This document shows, piece after piece, positions 4,787 to 41,383 of a stretch of DNA of 48,251 nucleotides. The position numbers and the translations under genes were made by a program. Under the pieces are notes generated by a model. That model saw only the letters and a program-made list of their open reading frames with translations, was not told where the DNA came from and made no database searches. Positions within the stretch are counted from its first letter, which is position 1, and the number at the start of each line of letters is the position of its first letter. This DNA is from a virus: IMG/VR virus record IMGVR_UViG_3300030099_006253, positions 1 to 48,251 of that record. The stretch is one strand, 5' to 3'.

Positions 4787-5173
4787 TCAGCCCTTTTTAT
4801 CTTCTTTGTCGTCCTCGTCTTCGTCCTCGTCTTCGTCCTCGTCTTCCTCTTTTTCAGCCTCGTAAAGCTCTTCACCTTCCAGTTCATCAGCTTCATTGAT
4901 AGTTTCAAGAATAAATTCAATGTGCTCTTGGATTCTATCAACACTCAAAGGCTCTTCTAATTGGGACTCGCAAAGAGGGCACTCATGAAGATCATTGGAC
5001 TCGTTGGCCTTCTTGTCCTCATCATCATCATCATTCTTCTTCTTCTTGCCTTTGACATGATCCGCCAATTGCGGAGGAACCTTATCCTCGGTCAAAGTGT
5101 TGGAATTCTGAGAAAGGTTGTTAGCCTCTAAAATTTGATTAATATAATCTTCACTAATATCTACGTAACGCAT
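4787..5173 (-). CDS. gp67-like acidic prohead core protein
   Basis: The 128-residue protein ends in a long Asp/Glu run from about residue 98 to 126, just as T4 gp67 (80 residues) ends in an acidic tail. A middle section has a Lys run followed by Asp/Glu (42-55) and a single CPLC pair (C65, C68) that T4 gp67 lacks. gp67 helps shape the prohead core and is cut by gp21. This gene is the first of the head cluster, preceded by 84 non-coding nt with a promoter-like element, and AGGAG lies 10 nt before the ATG. The tail is encoded by a simple repeat (about 4795-4850), so length may vary between strains. Confidence 0.68.
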   Translation of the reverse strand: MRYVDISEDYINQILEANNLSQNSNTLTEDKVPPQLADHVKGKKKKNDDDDEDKKANESNDLHECPLCESQLEEPLSVDRIQEHIEFILETINEADELEGEELYEAEKEEDEDEDEDEDEDDKEDKKG

Positions 5174-5257: not shown

Positions 5258-6100
5258 CTAGGGGTCAGTGCTAAGAGCAAACTGAACATCAAAGTTAACA
5301 TCCTTTGCAATGATTGAGCTTGCCTCACCGTAAATAAACCTTACGGAAACTGGTATGCTCCTTACAAATAAGGTGCTTTCACCTGTATTCTCTTGCTCTG
5401 GTGGGATAAATGAGGGTATAAGTGTTATTGCCCCCGCATTGTCAATTGTAAAAGGTCCGCTAATCATTTCAAATCTAACAAAAGGATCTAAAGGTTGCTG
5501 ATATATTGGGGGTGCTGTTGCTGGTATATTCGCGGCCCCTTGAGACTGAATACTTGTATACCGTCTACCTGTAAACTCCTCTTGAAGGGTCACTCTAAAC
5601 CCATTAGATGATTTAGGTTGCAGTGCATCTGGTCTCCAACCGCTCCAGGTTTCTTTAAATGCCGTGGGGCCAAGGCTAGTTCGGACAATACGACCCCTCA
5701 ATACAACATTGTAAGTAACCGAGGTTCCAACGACAACATATCCGACCTGTTCGCCAACGTTTGCACCGGGGTCACCACCCGGAACAACTTGAAGAAAATT
5801 GCCACCTCCGTTTGCATACACAGTTCCCCCAGGTGTTTCAGCAGCATCGCCACAACCCATAGGATCACCGTCTCTTACTATTGGGATACCCCCTGCAAAT
5901 ACAGTGGGACTGCCTTGTATGGCTATCACATCGTGAGTGCTAGGTGGGGTAGTGCAGCCAGGAAGGTGAACAGTTTTGTCACCTTCAACTATAGCGAGAG
6001 CCCCGTCTACATGAACGCTTCCATTCTTCTGACTCACCATGGGAGCGGGAGGCCAACAGTGTCCTTGCGTAAAATCTCCTACTTTAGCTATTAAAGGCAT
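5258..6100 (-). CDS. PAAR-domain spike-tip protein with C-terminal extension
   Basis: Residues 1-105 have the PAAR pattern: repeated Gly-turn hairpins with Asp/His/Cys metal-ligand candidates ('GDFTQGHCWPP', 'VHVDGALAIVEGDKTVHLPGC', 'THDVIAIQGSPTVFAGGIP', 'IVRDGDPMGCGD'). PAAR proteins, including T4 gp5.4, cap the central spike of contractile tails with a metal-stabilised sharp tip. Residues about 106-280 form a beta-rich extension not found in gp5.4. It contains 'NVVLRGRIVRTS' (131-142), which is close to a segment of the fibre encoded at 39074-41383. GGAG lies 7 nt before the ATG, and the start overlaps the upstream stop (TAATG). This is the last gene of the tail operon. Confidence 0.88.
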   Translation of the reverse strand: MPLIAKVGDFTQGHCWPPAPMVSQKNGSVHVDGALAIVEGDKTVHLPGCTTPPSTHDVIAIQGSPTVFAGGIPIVRDGDPMGCGDAAETPGGTVYANGGGNFLQVVPGGDPGANVGEQVGYVVVGTSVTYNVVLRGRIVRTSLGPTAFKETWSGWRPDALQPKSSNGFRVTLQEEFTGRRYTSIQSQGAANIPATAPPIYQQPLDPFVRFEMISGPFTIDNAGAITLIPSFIPPEQENTGESTLFVRSIPVSVRFIYGEASSIIAKDVNFDVQFALSTDP

Positions 6101-8853
6101 TATCTGTCTCCAGACTTTATGATAGTCTTTTCATCATCCGAAAGTATTTTACTTAAAATATCCTTAGATGTGTTGAGTATGAAATTTATTTTTACACCGG
6201 ATCTAAATCCTCTATCTAGTTCTGAGATTAAAAGATTGTTGCTGTCATAGAGAAATTCACCGACCCTATTTAAAGGCATTCTTCTGATGACATCATACCA
6301 AGAAATAACTTCAGGATCGTAAGTAGTGATGATGTAATCAATTACATCTTTAATCATGAAGGACAATCCTTGAGACGATACAACTGATATATCAGCACTA
6401 GTGGTATACTCCCCATTTTTAAAGAAAGTTTCAGTGTATCTCTCATTTGATGCATCATATTTATATAATACATTTTGAGTGTCCACAGGCTCCGCTAGGC
6501 CTACTTTTAAATCACCATTGGTGCTATTAAACAAATTAACTTCTTCAAGCTCAGGCTTGTTAGGTTTTAAATCAAAAACATCTATATCAGGTATTAGGAG
6601 CAGGCTCCTGGTAAATGGCTCCTCAAAAGAATCTAAGGTGGATTTACCATTAAAAGGATTAAACTTTGAGCCCACCACAGGGGTGATGATTAATCCAAAA
6701 GGTATATTTCTAGCAATGCGAGCGCCTCCAGGATAATCTTTGGGGTCTAAGATACTTTCAAAATTTATGTCACTTAAAGCTAAGGAGACATCTCCACCAT
6801 CTAAAATATAACGATAAATAGGATCTCTGTAATCAATATTTATCCTGGTTACGGCAAGACCATTATCTTTGGCGTGTTGATCAATAATACCTTGATTGTT
6901 TTCGACCACATACCTACCTGTGTATCTTGAGATAAGAGGGTTATTGTTAACTTCGGACGTTACAGAAGATATATCAAGAGTTAAATATAAAGGAACCAAG
7001 GATGATACTCCGAGATCCCCAGCCACAAGTTCATTTTGACCGCTGACCGCAGAGACTGATAGTGTGTAGGCAGAGTCTTCTTTGAACAACTCTAGAGCGT
7101 TTACTCTAGTGTCTGGGGGAACGAAGAACGTATTTTCTATATCTGTTTGAAGTAGTAAGGGTACTTTAGTTCCATCTGCTAATTCAGAGGGTATGTAGTA
7201 ACCATCTCCTTCACCAATAGAAAGCTTAAAGGAGCCTCCAGACGAATCTAAAACATCAAAACCAATATCAGTTAACTCTATGGATTCCTTGGGAATGTCC
7301 TCCAAAGTGTCTGTCGTAAGTCGCGCATCAATATCGGTTAACAGTCTTCTCTGCCTACGAACTTGTCTTTTCTGAAGATTTACAAGCTGATTTGTATCTG
7401 CGGTAATTGCTTGACTGCCTACAAGACCCAAGCCTGCTCGTTCGGAAATATCTTTATCCTGTATACCTGTAAAACGAATCCTGGTGTCTTGTTTTTGTTT
7501 TCTAGCCAGATCAATATAATATTCCGAATCAAACTCCTCTAAGGTCCCTGTAAGTAGATGCTTCCTAACCATTTCTAAGAAGTCTACCTTGCCCACTAAT
7601 CTACCCCCAGAATGATGAATAGTATTGAATGCATCTAAGAGATTATCGTTCAAGCTGAGTTCAATATCAGTTAGGTTCAATGAGAAAAGAGTGTTTTCTC
7701 TCCACGAAGATAAACTACCCTCATTATTAATTAAATCAGCTACTTCAGACGCTACTGAAGGTTTAAATATATTAGGGTAAGAGAAATTAGGACTAAATGA
7801 ATTAACCTGTAATGATCTGTTTGCTGCAAAGAAATTAAAAGTATTATTAAATATTTTTGAGTAGACTTGAATGCTAGGAAGTGGTTGTCCTTGAGAATTA
7901 GTTATGTTTGGTTGTAAGGGCTCATTAATAGAAACTCCAGGCTCGTTAACTGAAATACCTAAAGTTGGGCTTTGAGCTACTTGTTGAGATATATTTATAG
8001 TAGTCAATACGGGTGTTTGAGATCCTGTAGGCTCTGATGGTAATTGAGATACAGTCAGCTTAGGATTCTGAGATGGAGGTAAGGGGGCTTGAGACAGAGG
8101 GTCCACACAATCTGTTACAAATCTACCACCTGTTATAGGGCCGGGTGGACATGCATTTTCACAATTTTGCTTTGTCCTATAGATACAATCCGATTGAAAT
8201 GTTTGAACAGCTTTGTTGCCTTTTAATACTGGTGGTCCTTGGCTCTGTAAAATATTACTTCCATTTGGGTCTAAAGAATTACAGACTACACATATGTGTT
8301 GAGCAGCAAGAATACGACGTTCATTAGGTTCCTTCTCGATATCTTGAGGACATATAAATAGATTTCTTGTGCATCTAAAGAATCTAGCTCCACCTCCTGT
8401 TGTGGGACCCAATTGACCACCACCACCACCACCACCCGCAGGAGGCGGTTCCTGCGGATCCGGCTCTTCCACTTCTCTAATAAAAGGGTTGGGACATGGA
8501 AGATTATCACACTCCTCTCTTGATGCGAATATACAATCAGGATCATTAGGACCGGGGTTTTTAGGAAGCCCAAAAGGTCTAGTATTTAAAGCATTATCGC
8601 AGGGTAAGCATTCTTGAAAAAATCCATTCTTATACCTAAATCCAGGAGGGGGCGGTGGGGCAAAGGCAAGGCTCATTTTCTTGCAAGCAAACTTAGGGGG
8701 ATCGCCTGTTGGAGGAATGAACGGGGGTATTTGCTCGTTGAATCTAGTTGGTTTAGGAACAACCGTAGTGGGTGTAGGTGGATCCACACTAGGAATATTA
8801 ATTGGTTCTCCCCCTGGGACGAACTCACCACACCCAAAACGAATGCCAGCCAT
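6100..8853 (-). CDS. Large structural protein with duplicated Cys-rich N-terminal modules
   Basis: The protein has 917 residues. After a Pro-rich start, two Cys-rich modules follow: C57, C82, C85, C107, C115, C120, and C161, C168, C188, C191, C223, C231, C235. Both end in a D-C-I-(F/Y)-x3-x2-C-x-N-x2-C-P pattern and are separated by a poly-Gly linker (140-146). Residues 260-320 are Gln/Ser/Pro-rich repeats of 'SQ' phrases, and the C-terminal 550 residues look like mixed folded domains. I do not recognise a named family for the whole. Its place between the PAAR tip and fibre genes points to a baseplate/fibre component exposed on the virion. Start and stop overlap neighbouring genes by one codon (TAATG), indicating coupled translation. 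Confidence 0.72.
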   Translation of the reverse strand: MAGIRFGCGEFVPGGEPINIPSVDPPTPTTVVPKPTRFNEQIPPFIPPTGDPPKFACKKMSLAFAPPPPPGFRYKNGFFQECLPCDNALNTRPFGLPKNPGPNDPDCIFASREECDNLPCPNPFIREVEEPDPQEPPPAGGGGGGGQLGPTTGGGARFFRCTRNLFICPQDIEKEPNERRILAAQHICVVCNSLDPNGSNILQSQGPPVLKGNKAVQTFQSDCIYRTKQNCENACPPGPITGGRFVTDCVDPLSQAPLPPSQNPKLTVSQLPSEPTGSQTPVLTTINISQQVAQSPTLGISVNEPGVSINEPLQPNITNSQGQPLPSIQVYSKIFNNTFNFFAANRSLQVNSFSPNFSYPNIFKPSVASEVADLINNEGSLSSWRENTLFSLNLTDIELSLNDNLLDAFNTIHHSGGRLVGKVDFLEMVRKHLLTGTLEEFDSEYYIDLARKQKQDTRIRFTGIQDKDISERAGLGLVGSQAITADTNQLVNLQKRQVRRQRRLLTDIDARLTTDTLEDIPKESIELTDIGFDVLDSSGGSFKLSIGEGDGYYIPSELADGTKVPLLLQTDIENTFFVPPDTRVNALELFKEDSAYTLSVSAVSGQNELVAGDLGVSSLVPLYLTLDISSVTSEVNNNPLISRYTGRYVVENNQGIIDQHAKDNGLAVTRINIDYRDPIYRYILDGGDVSLALSDINFESILDPKDYPGGARIARNIPFGLIITPVVGSKFNPFNGKSTLDSFEEPFTRSLLLIPDIDVFDLKPNKPELEEVNLFNSTNGDLKVGLAEPVDTQNVLYKYDASNERYTETFFKNGEYTTSADISVVSSQGLSFMIKDVIDYIITTYDPEVISWYDVIRRMPLNRVGEFLYDSNNLLISELDRGFRSGVKINFILNTSKDILSKILSDDEKTIIKSGDR

Positions 8854-34636: not shown

Positions 34637-35576
34637 GATGGATGATTCCTATATTAGAAAATACTGTCTAGATAAGTTCTCCTCTAATTATAGGCTTGAG
34701 AGTGATGGAAGGCAGATGGTAGTTCCATCTATTTTCATTAATAATGATTATAAACGTCACATGTCCATCAATGTTGAAAATGGATTGTGGAGGTGTTTCA
34801 AGACTGGTGAGACTGGGAACTTCATCAGGCTTTATGTTCTGATGGAAAAATGCTCTTACGCAGAGGCAAAAGTTAATCTTGCTTTTGAGCAGTTTAATGA
34901 GGGTAGAAAGATTCGCAAGCCAATTAGATTCGACACTAACAAGATTAAGTCTAATATTGAGGGCGCAAAAGACTTTGAGTTCGTAGAGGGTCATCCATTT
35001 GCTAAAAAAAGAATGGTTCCCGATGCCAAGTTTATGCTAGCAAAACACGGTCCCTACAAAGGCAGGTTGATTATTCCTTTTATCAACCGAAAGGGACGAT
35101 TGTTCTACTTTCAAGCTCGCGCATTGGGAGATGAAATGCCAAAGTATTTGAACTGTAAGGATCTCAAAAGTTCACAAGTTCTATACCCCTATGACTATAG
35201 CTCGTACGAGCCTCTATACGTCACTGAGGGCGTCTTTGATTGTTTAAGCCTACAGCAGATAGGCTTGAACGCTACGACCACTCTAAGCTGCTACACAAGT
35301 CGTGAACAGATGCTTCAACTGAGTCAATATCAAGGATCTCTTGTGTGTGCATTTGATAGTGATGAGGCAGGTCAAAAAGGTAGAGATAAGTTCCTACAAC
35401 TTAGTAACTGGGTTTGCAGAGACAATATTCAAACGGTCACCCCCCCTAATGGTTTCAAAGATTGGAACGAATTATTAATAAGGGAGGGGCCTGATTATTT
35501 GAAGCAGGCTGCTGAAAAGACAATTCCCCTAAACAGCCTTGAATGCCTTCTAAGCTCACCTGATAATAAATCCTAG
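34635..35576 (+). CDS. 61: DnaG/gp61-like DNA primase with degenerate zinc-binding domain
   Basis: From the double ATG at 34635 the protein has 313 residues; an upstream in-frame ATG at 34560 lies inside the nuclease gene. The Toprim core is clear: 'YVTEGVFDCLSL' with E198, 'VCAFDSDEAGQKGRDKF' with D241 and D243, then 'GFKDWNELL'. The N-terminal 'INVENGLWRCFKTGETGNFI' aligns with the DnaG zinc-ribbon end (xxxGxWxCFxCGxGGDxI). However, only C54 remains and the other zinc ligands are replaced. It should make RNA primers for lagging-strand synthesis with a gp41-type helicase, which is not in this window. Its 3' end overlaps a convergent structural gene by 21 nt. Confidence 0.87.
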   Translation: MMDDSYIRKYCLDKFSSNYRLESDGRQMVVPSIFINNDYKRHMSINVENGLWRCFKTGETGNFIRLYVLMEKCSYAEAKVNLAFEQFNEGRKIRKPIRFDTNKIKSNIEGAKDFEFVEGHPFAKKRMVPDAKFMLAKHGPYKGRLIIPFINRKGRLFYFQARALGDEMPKYLNCKDLKSSQVLYPYDYSSYEPLYVTEGVFDCLSLQQIGLNATTTLSCYTSREQMLQLSQYQGSLVCAFDSDEAGQKGRDKFLQLSNWVCRDNIQTVTPPNGFKDWNELLIREGPDYLKQAAEKTIPLNSLECLLSSPDNKS

Positions 35577-36500
35577 ATCATCTGATACAATGGTTTGATT
35601 CAATGCAGTAAACTTAAGTCTAACCGCATATGCACCTGTGAGAGAACCTAAGTTTCCTTCTAGAAGTTCAGGGTGAGTTTTTAAAGCCTCTGTATCAAAT
35701 GTGAAGACAGCAGTGTTTTCGGATGTGACATCCATAAATCCTGAGGTGTCTACATATCCCGAAACTGTAACCCTGGAAGGTAAGTTTCTGTCTGTATTCT
35801 TCTTCACGATCTCGATCATAGGATCCATGACAAGGGACTCCTTGAACAGGTTGACGATACTTCTGTCCACGTTAGCGTTTTCTAAAGTAAACTCATTAAC
35901 GAATTTGAGATCTATTTTAGATCCAAGCACCAAGTGATTGTTTTCTAGGCGAGTATTCACACTGAACAGCAAAGGTTCGGTAATGCTGATAAACCTGTCT
36001 TCGGTTAACGTGAACTCATTAACCACGGTGTCCAAGTCAGATCCAGCAGCCCTTTGCACTGTCCAAACATCAATATAATCTCCTGTGGATGATACTCTGT
36101 TTGATATCTCCGTTTCACCCGAAAGGTTAAATACACTGGCGGGTAGAGTAATCGGGTCCATTAAAACACAGGCGAATTTACCTGTATCAAGTTTGTAAAC
36201 ACTTGAAGAGTTGAAATCTGCGTTAAAGCCAATCTCGTTGTATAATGTATTGTCAGCAACAACCCCAGGACCAGAGAAATGCATTAGTATGCTACCAGTT
36301 ACAGCGGGGTCAATCTCACCATCGGCGGTGATTACAGAACTTGGGCTCTGATTGTCTGACGCTGCAAAAATTGAAACCCCACTGATAGCGTGGGGGTCAG
36401 CATACTGACCGTCGTTTACAAAATAAAGTATTAACGCTGTCGGGCCTTGTACTGTGGGCCTTTGATGGCGAGTGTCTACTTTGATATCATTAATTCTCAT
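35556..36500 (-). CDS. Virion/assembly protein of unknown function, 314 aa
   Basis: This beta-rich protein has alternating hydrophobic strands, few Cys or charged clusters and a C-terminal strand pair ('AYAVRLKFTALNQTIVSDDL', GFIIR). The make-up looks like a virion structural protein with Ig-like or fibre-type domains. It starts in an ATGA overlap with the end of the -1 reading frame that follows the gp26-like gene, so it is translated from the same late mRNA. I know similar proteins from marine T4-like phages as 'structural protein' but no function. Confidence 0.62.
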   Translation of the reverse strand: MRINDIKVDTRHQRPTVQGPTALILYFVNDGQYADPHAISGVSIFAASDNQSPSSVITADGEIDPAVTGSILMHFSGPGVVADNTLYNEIGFNADFNSSSVYKLDTGKFACVLMDPITLPASVFNLSGETEISNRVSSTGDYIDVWTVQRAAGSDLDTVVNEFTLTEDRFISITEPLLFSVNTRLENNHLVLGSKIDLKFVNEFTLENANVDRSIVNLFKESLVMDPMIEIVKKNTDRNLPSRVTVSGYVDTSGFMDVTSENTAVFTFDTEALKTHPELLEGNLGSLTGAYAVRLKFTALNQTIVSDDLGFIIR

Positions 36501-36679
36501 AAGTTTGAAACCTCACTATTAGTCGCTTTTGCCTCCTCGATATACATATTAAGGAAAGCCATTCTCTCATTTGAAGTCATTTTTTTAACATCTGAGTATG
36601 AAAAGCCACTCTTACTTACTAATATGTAGGCTTGACGCATTAATTGCTCAAACGTTAAAGAGTCTAGTAGGTCACTGAA
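36497..36679 (-). CDS. -1 frame extension of the gp26-like protein (frameshifted C-terminal domain)
   Basis: After GGT TTT TTT the -1 frame stays open for 60 codons to a TGA at 36497. It encodes 'FSDLLDSLTFEQLMRQAYIL', then VSKSGFSYSDVKKMTSNERM and AFLNMYIEEAK. Upstream in this frame a TAA lies about 14 codons before the T-run, and no ATG, GTG or TTG occurs until ATG 36640. That ATG has no Shine-Dalgarno and would remove the first helix. The frame ends in an ATGA overlap with the next gene, as true gene ends do here. Frameshifting would give a product of about 308 residues, organised like lambda gpG/gpGT tail chaperones. Without frameshifting a 47-aa stand-alone protein from 36640 is the alternative. 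Confidence 0.66.
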   Translation of the reverse strand, partial: FSDLLDSLTFEQLMRQAYILVSKSGFSYSDVKKMTSNERMAFLNMYIEEAKATNSEVSNL

Positions 36680-37422
36680 AAAAAACCTGCATCTAAGGGT
36701 ACTTCCATCATGGACTTATGATCACATGATGGACAGTGGAACATAAAACGAGGATCTAACCCAAATTCCCCCTTATTAACCTCGTTAGCAATGACTTTTA
36801 CATCGACAATATGCATTCTTTGAATGGCTTTAGCCACAAATACAGGATCTTCAATTCCGTTAATTGAAACCACAAACCTGTAAAGATTTTTTGAAAAACT
36901 CGAAACATCTGAAACAAATGATTCCTCTCTATTTCGTGGAAATCTAACAATTGCGTTAACACCTAATTTAGGTAGTTTTACCGTCCTGGGGTCCTCGAAG
37001 TCGTCAGTGACATATTTAACATTTAAGTCTTTTGCGATGTCTAGTTTTGTAGTAATCTTGTCACCACAGGAAGGACAGGCTATATCAAATTTATATTCTG
37101 TGCCATATGATACTTCTCTAACTTTCATCAGTAAGAAAAGTTTATCTATTTGAAGAAGCTCAGATAGGTTGATACCAGTGACACACTTATCCAGAATAAG
37201 ATTAATAACGTCCAGTCCTTTGCCCTTAGAGTTTAATATTTTCTCTTCTTCCGCAAAGGTTAAAGGAGTTACCACCACCTCTTGGATACTAGAATAGAAT
37301 TTACTCCTGGAGGGTAGTTCAACAATTTGAGACTGAGGTTCCTCTGAGTTAGAGAACATTTTGTTTAGAATCTCCTCATAAGATTCTGAGTTCTTTCCTT
37401 TTATTTGCCTAATTTCACTCAT
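36664..37422 (-). CDS. 26: gp26-like baseplate hub assembly protein (unshifted product)
   Basis: The 252-residue protein resembles the T4 base-plate protein family of gp26: an N-terminal 'PLTFAEEEKILNSK' region, 'LLMKVREVSYGTEYKFDIAC' leading into CPSCG (C116, C119), and a matching second pair FHCPSCDHK (C230, C233). The four Cys very probably bind one zinc. T4 gp26 is 208 residues and acts in hub assembly but is not seen in the finished baseplate structure, which suggests a chaperone role. The final codons GGT TTT TTT TCA hold an eight-T run that fits a programmed -1 shift into the 60-codon extension. No strong Shine-Dalgarno is visible. A CTGAAATAGT element lies 9 nt before the ATG. Confidence 0.8.
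   Translation of the reverse strand: MSEIRQIKGKNSESYEEILNKMFSNSEEPQSQIVELPSRSKFYSSIQEVVVTPLTFAEEEKILNSKGKGLDVINLILDKCVTGINLSELLQIDKLFLLMKVREVSYGTEYKFDIACPSCGDKITTKLDIAKDLNVKYVTDDFEDPRTVKLPKLGVNAIVRFPRNREESFVSDVSSFSKNLYRFVVSINGIEDPVFVAKAIQRMHIVDVKVIANEVNKGEFGLDPRFMFHCPSCDHKSMMEVPLDAGFFSVTY
36678..36687 (-). promoter_or_regulatory. Candidate -1 ribosomal frameshift slippery site
   Basis: The mRNA reads GG-UUUUUUUU with zero frame GGU UUU UUU UCA, so the heptamer U UUU UUU lets both P- and A-site tRNAs re-pair after a -1 slip. It lies five codons before the zero-frame stop. I see no obvious strong downstream hairpin; a pseudoknot or internal Shine-Dalgarno was not evident either. Confidence 0.6.
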
Positions 37423-38853: not shown

Positions 38854-39085
38854 TTTTATAACCAAAGAAGCTCAAGTAGACACAATTAATAAGGTCACCA
38901 AAGATCAACAAAATACAATTGATTCTTGTGTAGACACTCTTAAACAAATTAAAAGTGAAGCTGTCATCACAGAATCAACTCTAAGAAACATCACTAGCGC
39001 AATTAGAGAGTTGGACTGCCTAAGAGAGCTATTCTACACACGTTTATTTAATTCGCTTAAACGTGGTGATATGCTATTGAATTAG
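38840..39085 (+). CDS. Small coiled-coil protein following uvsW
   Basis: The 81-residue product is a polar, probably coiled-coil helix (ITKEAQVDTINKVTKDQQNT ... ITSAIRELDCLRELFYTRLF). GAGG lies 6 nt before its ATG inside the end of uvsW (14-nt overlap), so it is translated from the uvsW mRNA. In T4 a small ORF, uvsW.1 (76 residues), occupies the same place; I cannot confirm homology. The 3' end overlaps the convergent fibre gene by 12 nt. Confidence 0.6.
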   Translation: MSDSNFITKEAQVDTINKVTKDQQNTIDSCVDTLKQIKSEAVITESTLRNITSAIRELDCLRELFYTRLFNSLKRGDMLLN

Positions 39086-41383
39086 ATCTCTTCCTCTCAG
39101 GGGGTCATCGATGCTAGTGTTAGGCTTAAATCTATATTGATGCCAATCGATAAATATCTCATTACCAACGTCTTGAACTGAGGAGCCCCAACTATTGGCA
39201 TTCCTGATAGCCCAAGCTAACCCTAGTCGATTAAATCTATTATCAGGGATTGTGTGACCTGCTGCCAAGGTAAACTGAGCTTTATTTACTCCATCAATAT
39301 AGAAGTCTACGGTGTCCCAATTTTCGTTGCAGCTTACCTGTAGAACTTGAAACTCTTGACCAGATGCGGCAACTCCTGTGTCAGTGACAGTAGAGTTACT
39401 ATTGTCGGTGACAACCGCTGACCAAGTGTCTCCTCCACCACCAGCACCTTGACCGTATTGGAACTCCATGGCGTAAGTAGCTTCGGCGTTACTAGTTCCA
39501 TTTCTAAATCCGAAACACATTCTACCCTCATTTTCACCAGTCACCCAAAGACCACTTGGTGCCATCCTGCTAGTGAATGAGAATTCACCTGAGCTAACAG
39601 CTATAGCATTGTTGAAGGTAGTTACGAAACATCTACCATAAGCGTCAGTTCCCGATCTAACCTCTATAACACCGATAGTTCCCTTATCAGGGTGCATCAC
39701 ATCATTATCAAAACATTGACCTGTGCCTGCCCCTGTACCTGTGTTTGACTGCCCAAAGCCATTAGCAGCAGTGCCAGCAGTAAGCCAATCTGCTTCATGA
39801 ATGTAACAGGCTGGATTTCCTTGTCCCGTCCTTGTAATAGATAGGTCAGTCGCTGACAGACTAGGAGTTGAAACACTGATATTAGCTGTTGTTTCGGTCG
39901 TTATGGTTAAACCAAGGTCAGCACCCGTGAGAGTCTCAACATTACTTATCGTTGTAAAAAGCCCGCCATCACCTTTTATCAACGGAGAAGAAACTTGAGT
40001 TGTGGCTATAATATTTTCCGCCGACACATTGGTAGCACTGCCGTTCTGAATTAAGTTCTTGCCGTCGATGCTTAAAGATAGTGAATCTGTTGAGGACGCA
40101 TCTGTGCCTGAGAAGAATAAAATCGTATCTGCTACTATATCGCCTATTCCCGTCTTGCCGGGGGGCACTGTTACAGTATTCGTAAAGCCAGAATCATTTC
40201 CTCCAAAAGAACTAGTTGTCAGGATGTTTCCTCTCAAAACAACATTAAAAGTTTCGCTGGAACCGGCATCTTGAAGAGCGACATCAACCAAAGATGTCAC
40301 TGCAAGATTATCCACTTTCGTATTAGTGGCATATGCATTGAGGTCTGTAGCAATAACAACATCTGTTCCCTCAACCGTTGGTTTGTCTTTGAATGTTACT
40401 GATCCAGTAACATTTGTAGGACCAGTTACATTTAAACCGTTCTCAAAAGAATTAGTTTGCGTGAATACATTGGCTGCTGTATATTTCGCTATCTCATTAG
40501 TTGATATAAAGTTACCTGGAGTTTGCGTTGATGTTTCATTATTACTAGCATAAAGGATAAGATCATTATTACCACCAGACCCAGGCTTTTCTAAAAGCGT
40601 TGACGTTACTGAAGTAAGAACAAATTGTTCCTCGGCGAGAGAAGTTGTTAAATATTGTTCTTCGGCTAAAGCAGTTGTTAAGTACTGTTCCTCCGCTAAA
40701 GCAGTGGCTAGAAATTGATCTTCAGCTAAAGCAGTTGTTAAATACTGTTCTTCGGCTAAGGCAGTAGTTAGAAATTGATCTTCTGCTAGAGCAGTGGTTA
40801 GAAATTGATCCTCTGCTAGAGCAGTGGTTAGAAATTGATCCTCTGCTAGAGCAGTGGTTAGAAAAGGATCTAATTCACTGGTTACCACTAGAGGATCTTC
40901 AGATCCGCCAACTGTAGGCGCGGCTGCAAATGTAACCGACCCCGTGGTTTGCAGTCCTGCATTAAATTGAGGAGCTTGTGTAAATGTAAGTTTAGGGTTA
41001 GCAGTGACAGGTAGTGTACTATTGGGGTCAATAATTACAAGTGTCGAGGGGCAAAACTGAGACCCATCCCAAGCTAGAACTTCACCTTCAGAAGCCGCGT
41101 CACCACAAACATCTGTGAGAGCGGTTACACTACATCCAGTTAAATCACCGCAGGTAAAAGATCCACCTCCACCACCTCCGGTGCCTGCGGTGATTGTAGA
41201 AGGAGCATATATAAAAGACCCATCTCCAACAGCAGACCAAGCCAAGACTTGATAGTGCTCAGGAGCATGATCGGTAGCAACATCAACAAGATCAACTGAA
41301 CTGATACTATATTCCGCTAAACCGGAGGGGTTATCGTTGCTGTCATAGCTTAATGCTAGAGGAAGTCTGTTTTTGATTGTCAC
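39074..41383 (-). CDS. Tail-fibre-like protein with decapeptide repeats and C-terminal jelly-roll region
   Basis: The start is GTG at 41383, preceded by a perfect AAAGGAGGT at 6 nt. The N-terminus (NDNPSGLAEYSISSV) is the type found on marine T4-like fibres. A poly-Gly linker follows at 68-74, two 'VLAW' blocks at 42-62 and 101-115, and eight decapeptide repeats (ED/EQ-Q-(F/Y)-LTTALA) at 171-250. The C-terminal 230 residues ('GEFSFTSRMAPSGLWVTGEN', 'DTVDFYIDGVNKAQFTLAAG') resemble a concanavalin-type beta-sandwich that could bind host glycans. It contains 'NVVLRGNILTTS', shared with the PAAR protein. It is probably a receptor-binding or collar/whisker-type fibre; the exact virion location is unknown. 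Confidence 0.78.
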   Translation of the reverse strand: MTIKNRLPLALSYDSNDNPSGLAEYSISSVDLVDVATDHAPEHYQVLAWSAVGDGSFIYAPSTITAGTGGGGGGSFTCGDLTGCSVTALTDVCGDAASEGEVLAWDGSQFCPSTLVIIDPNSTLPVTANPKLTFTQAPQFNAGLQTTGSVTFAAAPTVGGSEDPLVVTSELDPFLTTALAEDQFLTTALAEDQFLTTALAEDQFLTTALAEEQYLTTALAEDQFLATALAEEQYLTTALAEEQYLTTSLAEEQFVLTSVTSTLLEKPGSGGNNDLILYASNNETSTQTPGNFISTNEIAKYTAANVFTQTNSFENGLNVTGPTNVTGSVTFKDKPTVEGTDVVIATDLNAYATNTKVDNLAVTSLVDVALQDAGSSETFNVVLRGNILTTSSFGGNDSGFTNTVTVPPGKTGIGDIVADTILFFSGTDASSTDSLSLSIDGKNLIQNGSATNVSAENIIATTQVSSPLIKGDGGLFTTISNVETLTGADLGLTITTETTANISVSTPSLSATDLSITRTGQGNPACYIHEADWLTAGTAANGFGQSNTGTGAGTGQCFDNDVMHPDKGTIGVIEVRSGTDAYGRCFVTTFNNAIAVSSGEFSFTSRMAPSGLWVTGENEGRMCFGFRNGTSNAEATYAMEFQYGQGAGGGGDTWSAVVTDNSNSTVTDTGVAASGQEFQVLQVSCNENWDTVDFYIDGVNKAQFTLAAGHTIPDNRFNRLGLAWAIRNANSWGSSVQDVGNEIFIDWHQYRFKPNTSIDDPLRGRDLIQ
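40634..40873 (-). repeat. Eight tandem 30-bp coding repeats in the fibre gene
   Basis: Eight in-frame 30-bp units encode decapeptides of the form ExQ(F/Y)LTTALA. Three neighbouring units (40784-40873) are almost identical at DNA level and the others carry silent and conservative changes, so the array has grown by recent and older duplications. Units keep exact 30-bp phase, preserving the frame. The peptide period suggests a helical or coiled shaft segment. Confidence 0.9.

Follow-up and report, generated by a model that had tools for sequence, protein, structure and literature searches.

The window, by which the whole analysed stretch of 48,251 nucleotides is meant, carries on its minus strand a gene (37422..36664) that encodes a protein of 252 amino acids and ends with GGT TTT TTT TCA GTG ACC TAC TAG, the TAG stop codon occupying positions 36664..36666. 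The protein read in this zero frame, which is the candidate TAC-N or "G" form of the chaperone pair discussed below, matched PF12322 (T4_baseplate) with 53.2 bits against a curated cut-off of 24.5 (E 4e-14) and phrog_150 with an E value of 1e-15. PF12322 and phrog_150 represent the family of T4 gp26, and the zero-frame product belongs to this gp26 family. Two CxxC pairs, formed by C116 and C119 and by C230 and C233, are invariant in the protein. Its closest homologues in isolates, among them those of Listeria phage LIS04, Bacillus phage SP-15 and Streptococcus phage GXN1, are 23-30% identical, one IMG/VR contig encodes a protein identical to the zero-frame product, and a DNA similarity search for the locus among isolate phages gave no match. 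The window comes from a marine T4-like phage, and its lineage is an uncultivated group with about 30% identity to the nearest isolate proteins.

The structure of the zero-frame protein was modelled with a pLDDT of 86.7 and the model was compared with known structures. Foldseek gave no significant match in the PDB (E about 1), and among viral models the best match was a protein of SP-15 (E 5e-17). Realignment of 541 candidate PDB chains to the model gave three entries listed at a Z of at least 2: YqbN from B. subtilis (4.8), 2ob9, which is the tail assembly chaperone of HK97 (4.7), and a protein of a PICI (4.3). These Z values are weak, although one of the three, that of HK97, is noteworthy as a named chaperone of tail assembly.

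Just upstream of the zero-frame stop, the gene contains a run of eight T (36685..36678, minus strand; GGTTTTTTTTCA, within 36750-36480) that includes the in-phase heptamer T-TTT-TTT. The U-UUU-UUU site lies 22 nt upstream of the stop and its phase fits a tandem slip by -1. An in-phase heptamer occurs within the last 60 nt of 3 of the 33 genes in the window, and the gp26-like gene is the only one of the 33 in which it is combined with a -1 frame that stays open for more than 50 codons. The layout as described is confirmed and goes far beyond chance. Another in-phase heptamer, A-AAG-GGC, is located just 5' of a stop within 4787-5173 (minus strand), where the -1 frame is open for 30 further codons.

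A profile search of IMG/VR yielded 80 loci with relatives of the gene, of which 65 are distinct, and each of these 65 possesses an in-phase TTTTTTT or TTTTTTC heptamer (TTTTTTY) within the overlap of the two frames, the background of such heptamers elsewhere in the same genes being 0.9% per codon. In 57 of the 65 relatives the distance from the heptamer to the end of the zero-frame stop is exactly 19 nt, and 42 of the 65 have six T followed by C. Homopolymer runs are prone to sequencing error, and it could be supposed that the length of the run is an artefact of sequencing or assembly and that the true gene is one continuous open reading frame. Such an error is ruled out, because independent contigs with T6C, T7 or T8 all keep the two parts in the -1 register, with the zero-frame stop within a few codons, and as the cyanophage loci described below and the isolate genome Atu_ph07, which has TTTTTTC, likewise preserve this register, the probability of a single continuous gene is practically nil. 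Runs of eight T can also trigger slippage of RNA polymerase in AT-rich genomes, so that the two forms might be produced by transcriptional rather than ribosomal slippage. However, the TTTTTTC of the 42 relatives is a good tandem site for ribosomes and a poor site for polymerase slippage, and for this reason we regard a transcriptional origin as highly improbable.

After the slip, the -1 frame reads ...GFFFSDLLDSLTFEQLMRQAYILVSKSGFSYSDVKKMTSNERMAFLNMYIEEAKATNSEVSNL* up to a TGA at 36499..36497, adding 60 codons and giving a predicted fusion protein of 308 amino acids. The TGA overlaps the start of the next gene (36500..35556, minus strand) in an ATGA at 36497..36500. It is evident that the first-pass annotation, which had described the zero-frame ending with its eight-T run, a 60-codon -1 frame without a usable start of its own, a product of about 308 amino acids and the ATGA overlap, was correct in these points and in their coordinates. 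The extension (36497..36685, minus strand), the putative TAC-C or "T" part, is matched by no model in Pfam. It was also thought to be a plausible helical domain, and in agreement with this its model is all helical (pLDDT 86). A hidden Markov model built from the -1 peptides of the relatives, with the window left out, detects the peptide of the window at 84.9 bits. For the part of the -1 frame that lies past the overlap, the five closest pairings with the window gave dN/dS values of 0.24, 0.28, 0.16, 0.32 and 0.26, and the median over 622 pairs is 0.30, so that the -1 frame is, judging from these ratios, under purifying selection. Conservation of the T-run and of the -1 frame in relatives, which had been named as one check of the first proposal, was found for both.

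As another way of producing the extension, it could be a separate gp51-like gene, translated by reinitiation or from its own start, with the T-run being incidental. The earliest ATG in the extension of the window is at 36640, and in cyanophages such as Sf-FS3 the annotation gives the extension a gp51 gene of its own, immediately 3' of gp26 and named "baseplate hub assembly catalyst". In 43 of the 53 distinct loci of the cyanophage type, the first start is an ATG located 2 nt beyond the stop. However, the ATG at 36640 lies about 15 codons into the extension, so that initiation there would lose the conserved first 15 codons, and a sequence similar to a Shine-Dalgarno was not seen upstream of it. 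Among the extensions of the 65 relatives there is no conserved start codon, the first start lying anywhere between -70 and +92 as counted from the zero-frame stop, and in those of the window lineage that were inspected no Shine-Dalgarno was visible before the first starts. Cyanophages, too, still keep an in-phase TTTTTTC in gp26 that overlaps the annotated gp51 (53 of 53 distinct loci), and their extensions resemble those of the window lineage in a profile-profile comparison (E 2e-5). An own start codon is therefore rejected in the window lineage, where it has no fixed position, and a separate gene with an incidental T-run is judged to be very unlikely. In cyanophages an own start is possible, and the ATG 2 nt after the stop might also be used as a start there.

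In order to relate the extension to known proteins, the peptides of the family were compared with phrog_634 ("baseplate hub assembly catalyst"), which was matched by 16 of 27 extension peptides with a best value of 7e-5. The extension of the window taken alone gave a weak value of 0.012, other members of the family matching better. T4 gp51 matches phrog_634 at 1e-23 and is matched by the extension profile of the window lineage only marginally, at 8.6 bits compared with 7.8 bits for the best shuffle. From these comparisons the extension is probably a gp51-type C-terminal domain, an assignment that is weak for the window alone and is supported by the family. The first 200 residues of T4 gp51 match PF12322, so that gp51 consists of PF12322 plus a C-terminal extension, and T4 gp26 consists of PF12322 without the extension. 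T4 gp51 is a gp26 paralogue to which a C-terminal domain has been added, that is, the long form in its own gene. As gp51 combines a gp26-type domain with the extension, T4 appears to encode the short form (26) and the long form (51) as separate genes, and these are divergent neighbours (positions 5803-7229 of the T4 locus).

In more distant members of the family, the C-terminal domain, just 3' of the gp26-type gene, is encoded in the +1/-2 frame and not in the -1 frame, as seen in LIS04, SP-15, GXN1, LuckySocke, BRock and a large uncultured phage. This suggests that the direction of frameshifting has changed within the gp26-type family. A CC-CGA-TTY context is common to LIS04, SP-15 and GXN1.

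About 50 nt 3' of the T-run, the -1 frame contains a hyperconserved nucleotide motif, CAAGCCTACATA (36623..36634, minus strand; codons GAAGCCTAYATA in the window), with the consensus (C/G)AAGCCTAYATA, which is marked by a freeze of synonymous sites. Across 47 non-redundant relatives, (E/Q)AYI is encoded by synonymously frozen codons, GAA being used in 36 of 36 cases, GCC in 42 of 45 (7.7 expected) and ATA in 44 of 44 (10.9 expected). The motif is on site in 59 of the 65 loci and occurs 7 times elsewhere in 456 kb, which makes it unlikely that it acts as a general promoter, and no enrichment of TATAAATA was detected in the window. A search for a conserved cis-pairing partner of GCCTAYATA did not find one, and RNAalifold gave no consensus stimulatory structure. 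One specified hairpin of 10 pairs showed 65% paired cells, compared with 46-54% when it was slid along the alignment, and no excess of double-sided changes. In 35 relatives, synonymous shuffles of the region between the stop and the motif yielded z values for a hairpin that averaged -1.1 +/- 0.28, and the value of the window was only -1.3. A hairpin between stop and motif is therefore favoured in many relatives rather than in all, and is weak in the window. The element, often with a hairpin 5' of it, perhaps acts without a conserved cis partner, through a trans factor or as a new kind of stimulator. The wider proposal, according to which slipping depends on a lineage-specific RNA element containing this motif, with a trans factor or new stimulator, and the family switched its direction of shift in phages of Firmicutes and Streptomyces, is put forward tentatively and, as a joint statement, with less than even confidence. 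A second stretch frozen at synonymous sites, CAGTTCCATAAA, was observed in cyanophages 66-77 nt 3' of the slip, and this stretch may be a late promoter (CATAAATA).

The genomic surroundings of the gene were compared in the window lineage and in its relatives. In four distant phages, LIS04, SP-15, LuckySocke and BRock, the gene of the gp26 type is situated between the tail tube gene and the tape measure gene, or a large gene at that place, as is classic for G/GT. It is these distant relatives that carry the argument from position, because in the window lineage the gp26-like gene adjoins a gene for a UvsW-like helicase and has no recognised tube or tape-measure gene beside it; T4 gene 26 is also near uvsW. 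Seven loci show a conserved order of a divergent gene for the UvsW-like helicase, gp26 with its extension and a gene for a protein of about 314 amino acids without known function, followed by genes for a primase, on the opposite strand, and an exonuclease. The window also encodes, at 39074-41383 on the minus strand, a protein of 769 amino acids with near-perfect tandem repeats of LTTALAEDQF, which is perhaps a fibre or decoration protein.

Taken together, a programmed -1 ribosomal frameshift that yields the short and long forms of a G/GT-like tail assembly chaperone of the gp26/gp51 type is, on the sequence comparisons, very probably what the locus encodes. This reading is best supported because the slip site is kept in 65 of 65 relatives, the -1 frame shows the mark of purifying selection, the extension is without a usable start and it resembles the gp51-type domain, and it gains further support because four relatives have the gene at the tube/tape-measure location and because the HK97 chaperone is among the weak fold matches. 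Most ribosomes would terminate at the TAG (36666-36664) and produce the short form of 252 amino acids (TAC-N; compare lambda gpG and T4 gp26), whereas a minority would slip back by one base on U-UUU-UUU and read 60 more codons. The resulting long form of 308 amino acids (TAC-NC; compare lambda gpGT and T4 gp51) would carry the predicted helical C-terminal domain. If lambda is taken as the model, this domain may recruit components of the tube or the hub, the N-terminal part, present mainly as the short form, may cover the tape measure until the tube is assembled, and both forms would be absent from the finished virion. The earlier suggestion that gp26 in this lineage forms a G/GT-like chaperone pair is therefore supported.

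A review (PMC3004832) counts T4 gp26 and gp51 among the chaperones of hub assembly. In the part of PMC10885494 that concerns T4-like phages, Vladimirov, Gautam and Davidson (Virology 2022, 566:9-15, doi 10.1016/j.virol.2021.11.003) are cited for phages that use no frameshifting and have two genes, a short one and a longer fused one, and the corresponding part of PMC12846349 cites the same work (Vladimirov et al., 2022) for poly-T -1 signals in the TAC-N genes of T4-like phages. As far as these two citing passages go, the work covers the T4-like chaperones, and the first-pass remark that no description of this was known for gp26 does not hold for the literature. The frameshifted gp26/gp51 solution was published for T4-like phages in 2022, and therefore the window represents a new lineage with a known solution, the uncultivated lineage being what is new here. 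This large lineage supports the view that the T4-like gp26/gp51 pair is the equivalent of lambda G/GT, and an extension reached by frameshifting is the best reading both of the cyanophage "gp51" and of the second form that is "missing" elsewhere. Such a reading corrects the annotation of numerous genomes of marine phages and provides a rule by which the long form can be located. The synonymous constraint near the slip and the altered direction of the shift among relatives add two minor points that can be tested. T4 genes 26 and 51 are reportedly tail assembly chaperones, and Vladimirov, Gautam and Davidson are said to have found, in 2022, frameshifting in several other T4-like groups.

With the T4-like chaperones (gp26/gp51, TAC-N/TAC-NC) the locus shares PF12322, short and long forms that differ by a C-terminal domain and a poly-T -1 site, whereas T4 itself has two divergent genes in place of one gene with a -1 slip. 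The gp26-gp51 arrangement of cyanophages such as Sf-FS3 has a similar extension, likewise in the -1 frame, with TTTTTTC in all 53 distinct loci, but differs in its separately annotated gp51 and in the ATG just after the stop. Pseudomonas phage Adele and the Vandenendeviridae (PMC12846349) shift by -1 on a GTTTTT motif that is located at the 3' end of TAC-N, as is proposed for the window's T-run, but they belong to another virus family and their gene lies directly upstream of the tape measure gene. The two-gene chaperone of 0305phi8-36 (PMC2147016) is, like T4 gp26/gp51, a pair of short and long paralogues without a frameshift, and it was presented as the equivalent of lambda G/GT with no link to gp26 being drawn. 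Lambda gpG/gpGT and other frameshifted chaperones (Xu, Hendrix and Duda, 2004) are similar to the window in their layout of a short product and a minor -1 extension, and distant gp26-type relatives resemble them also in lying upstream of the tape measure gene. Unlike lambda G/GT, the gene of the window is away from any recognised tape measure gene and its G part contains two CxxC pairs.
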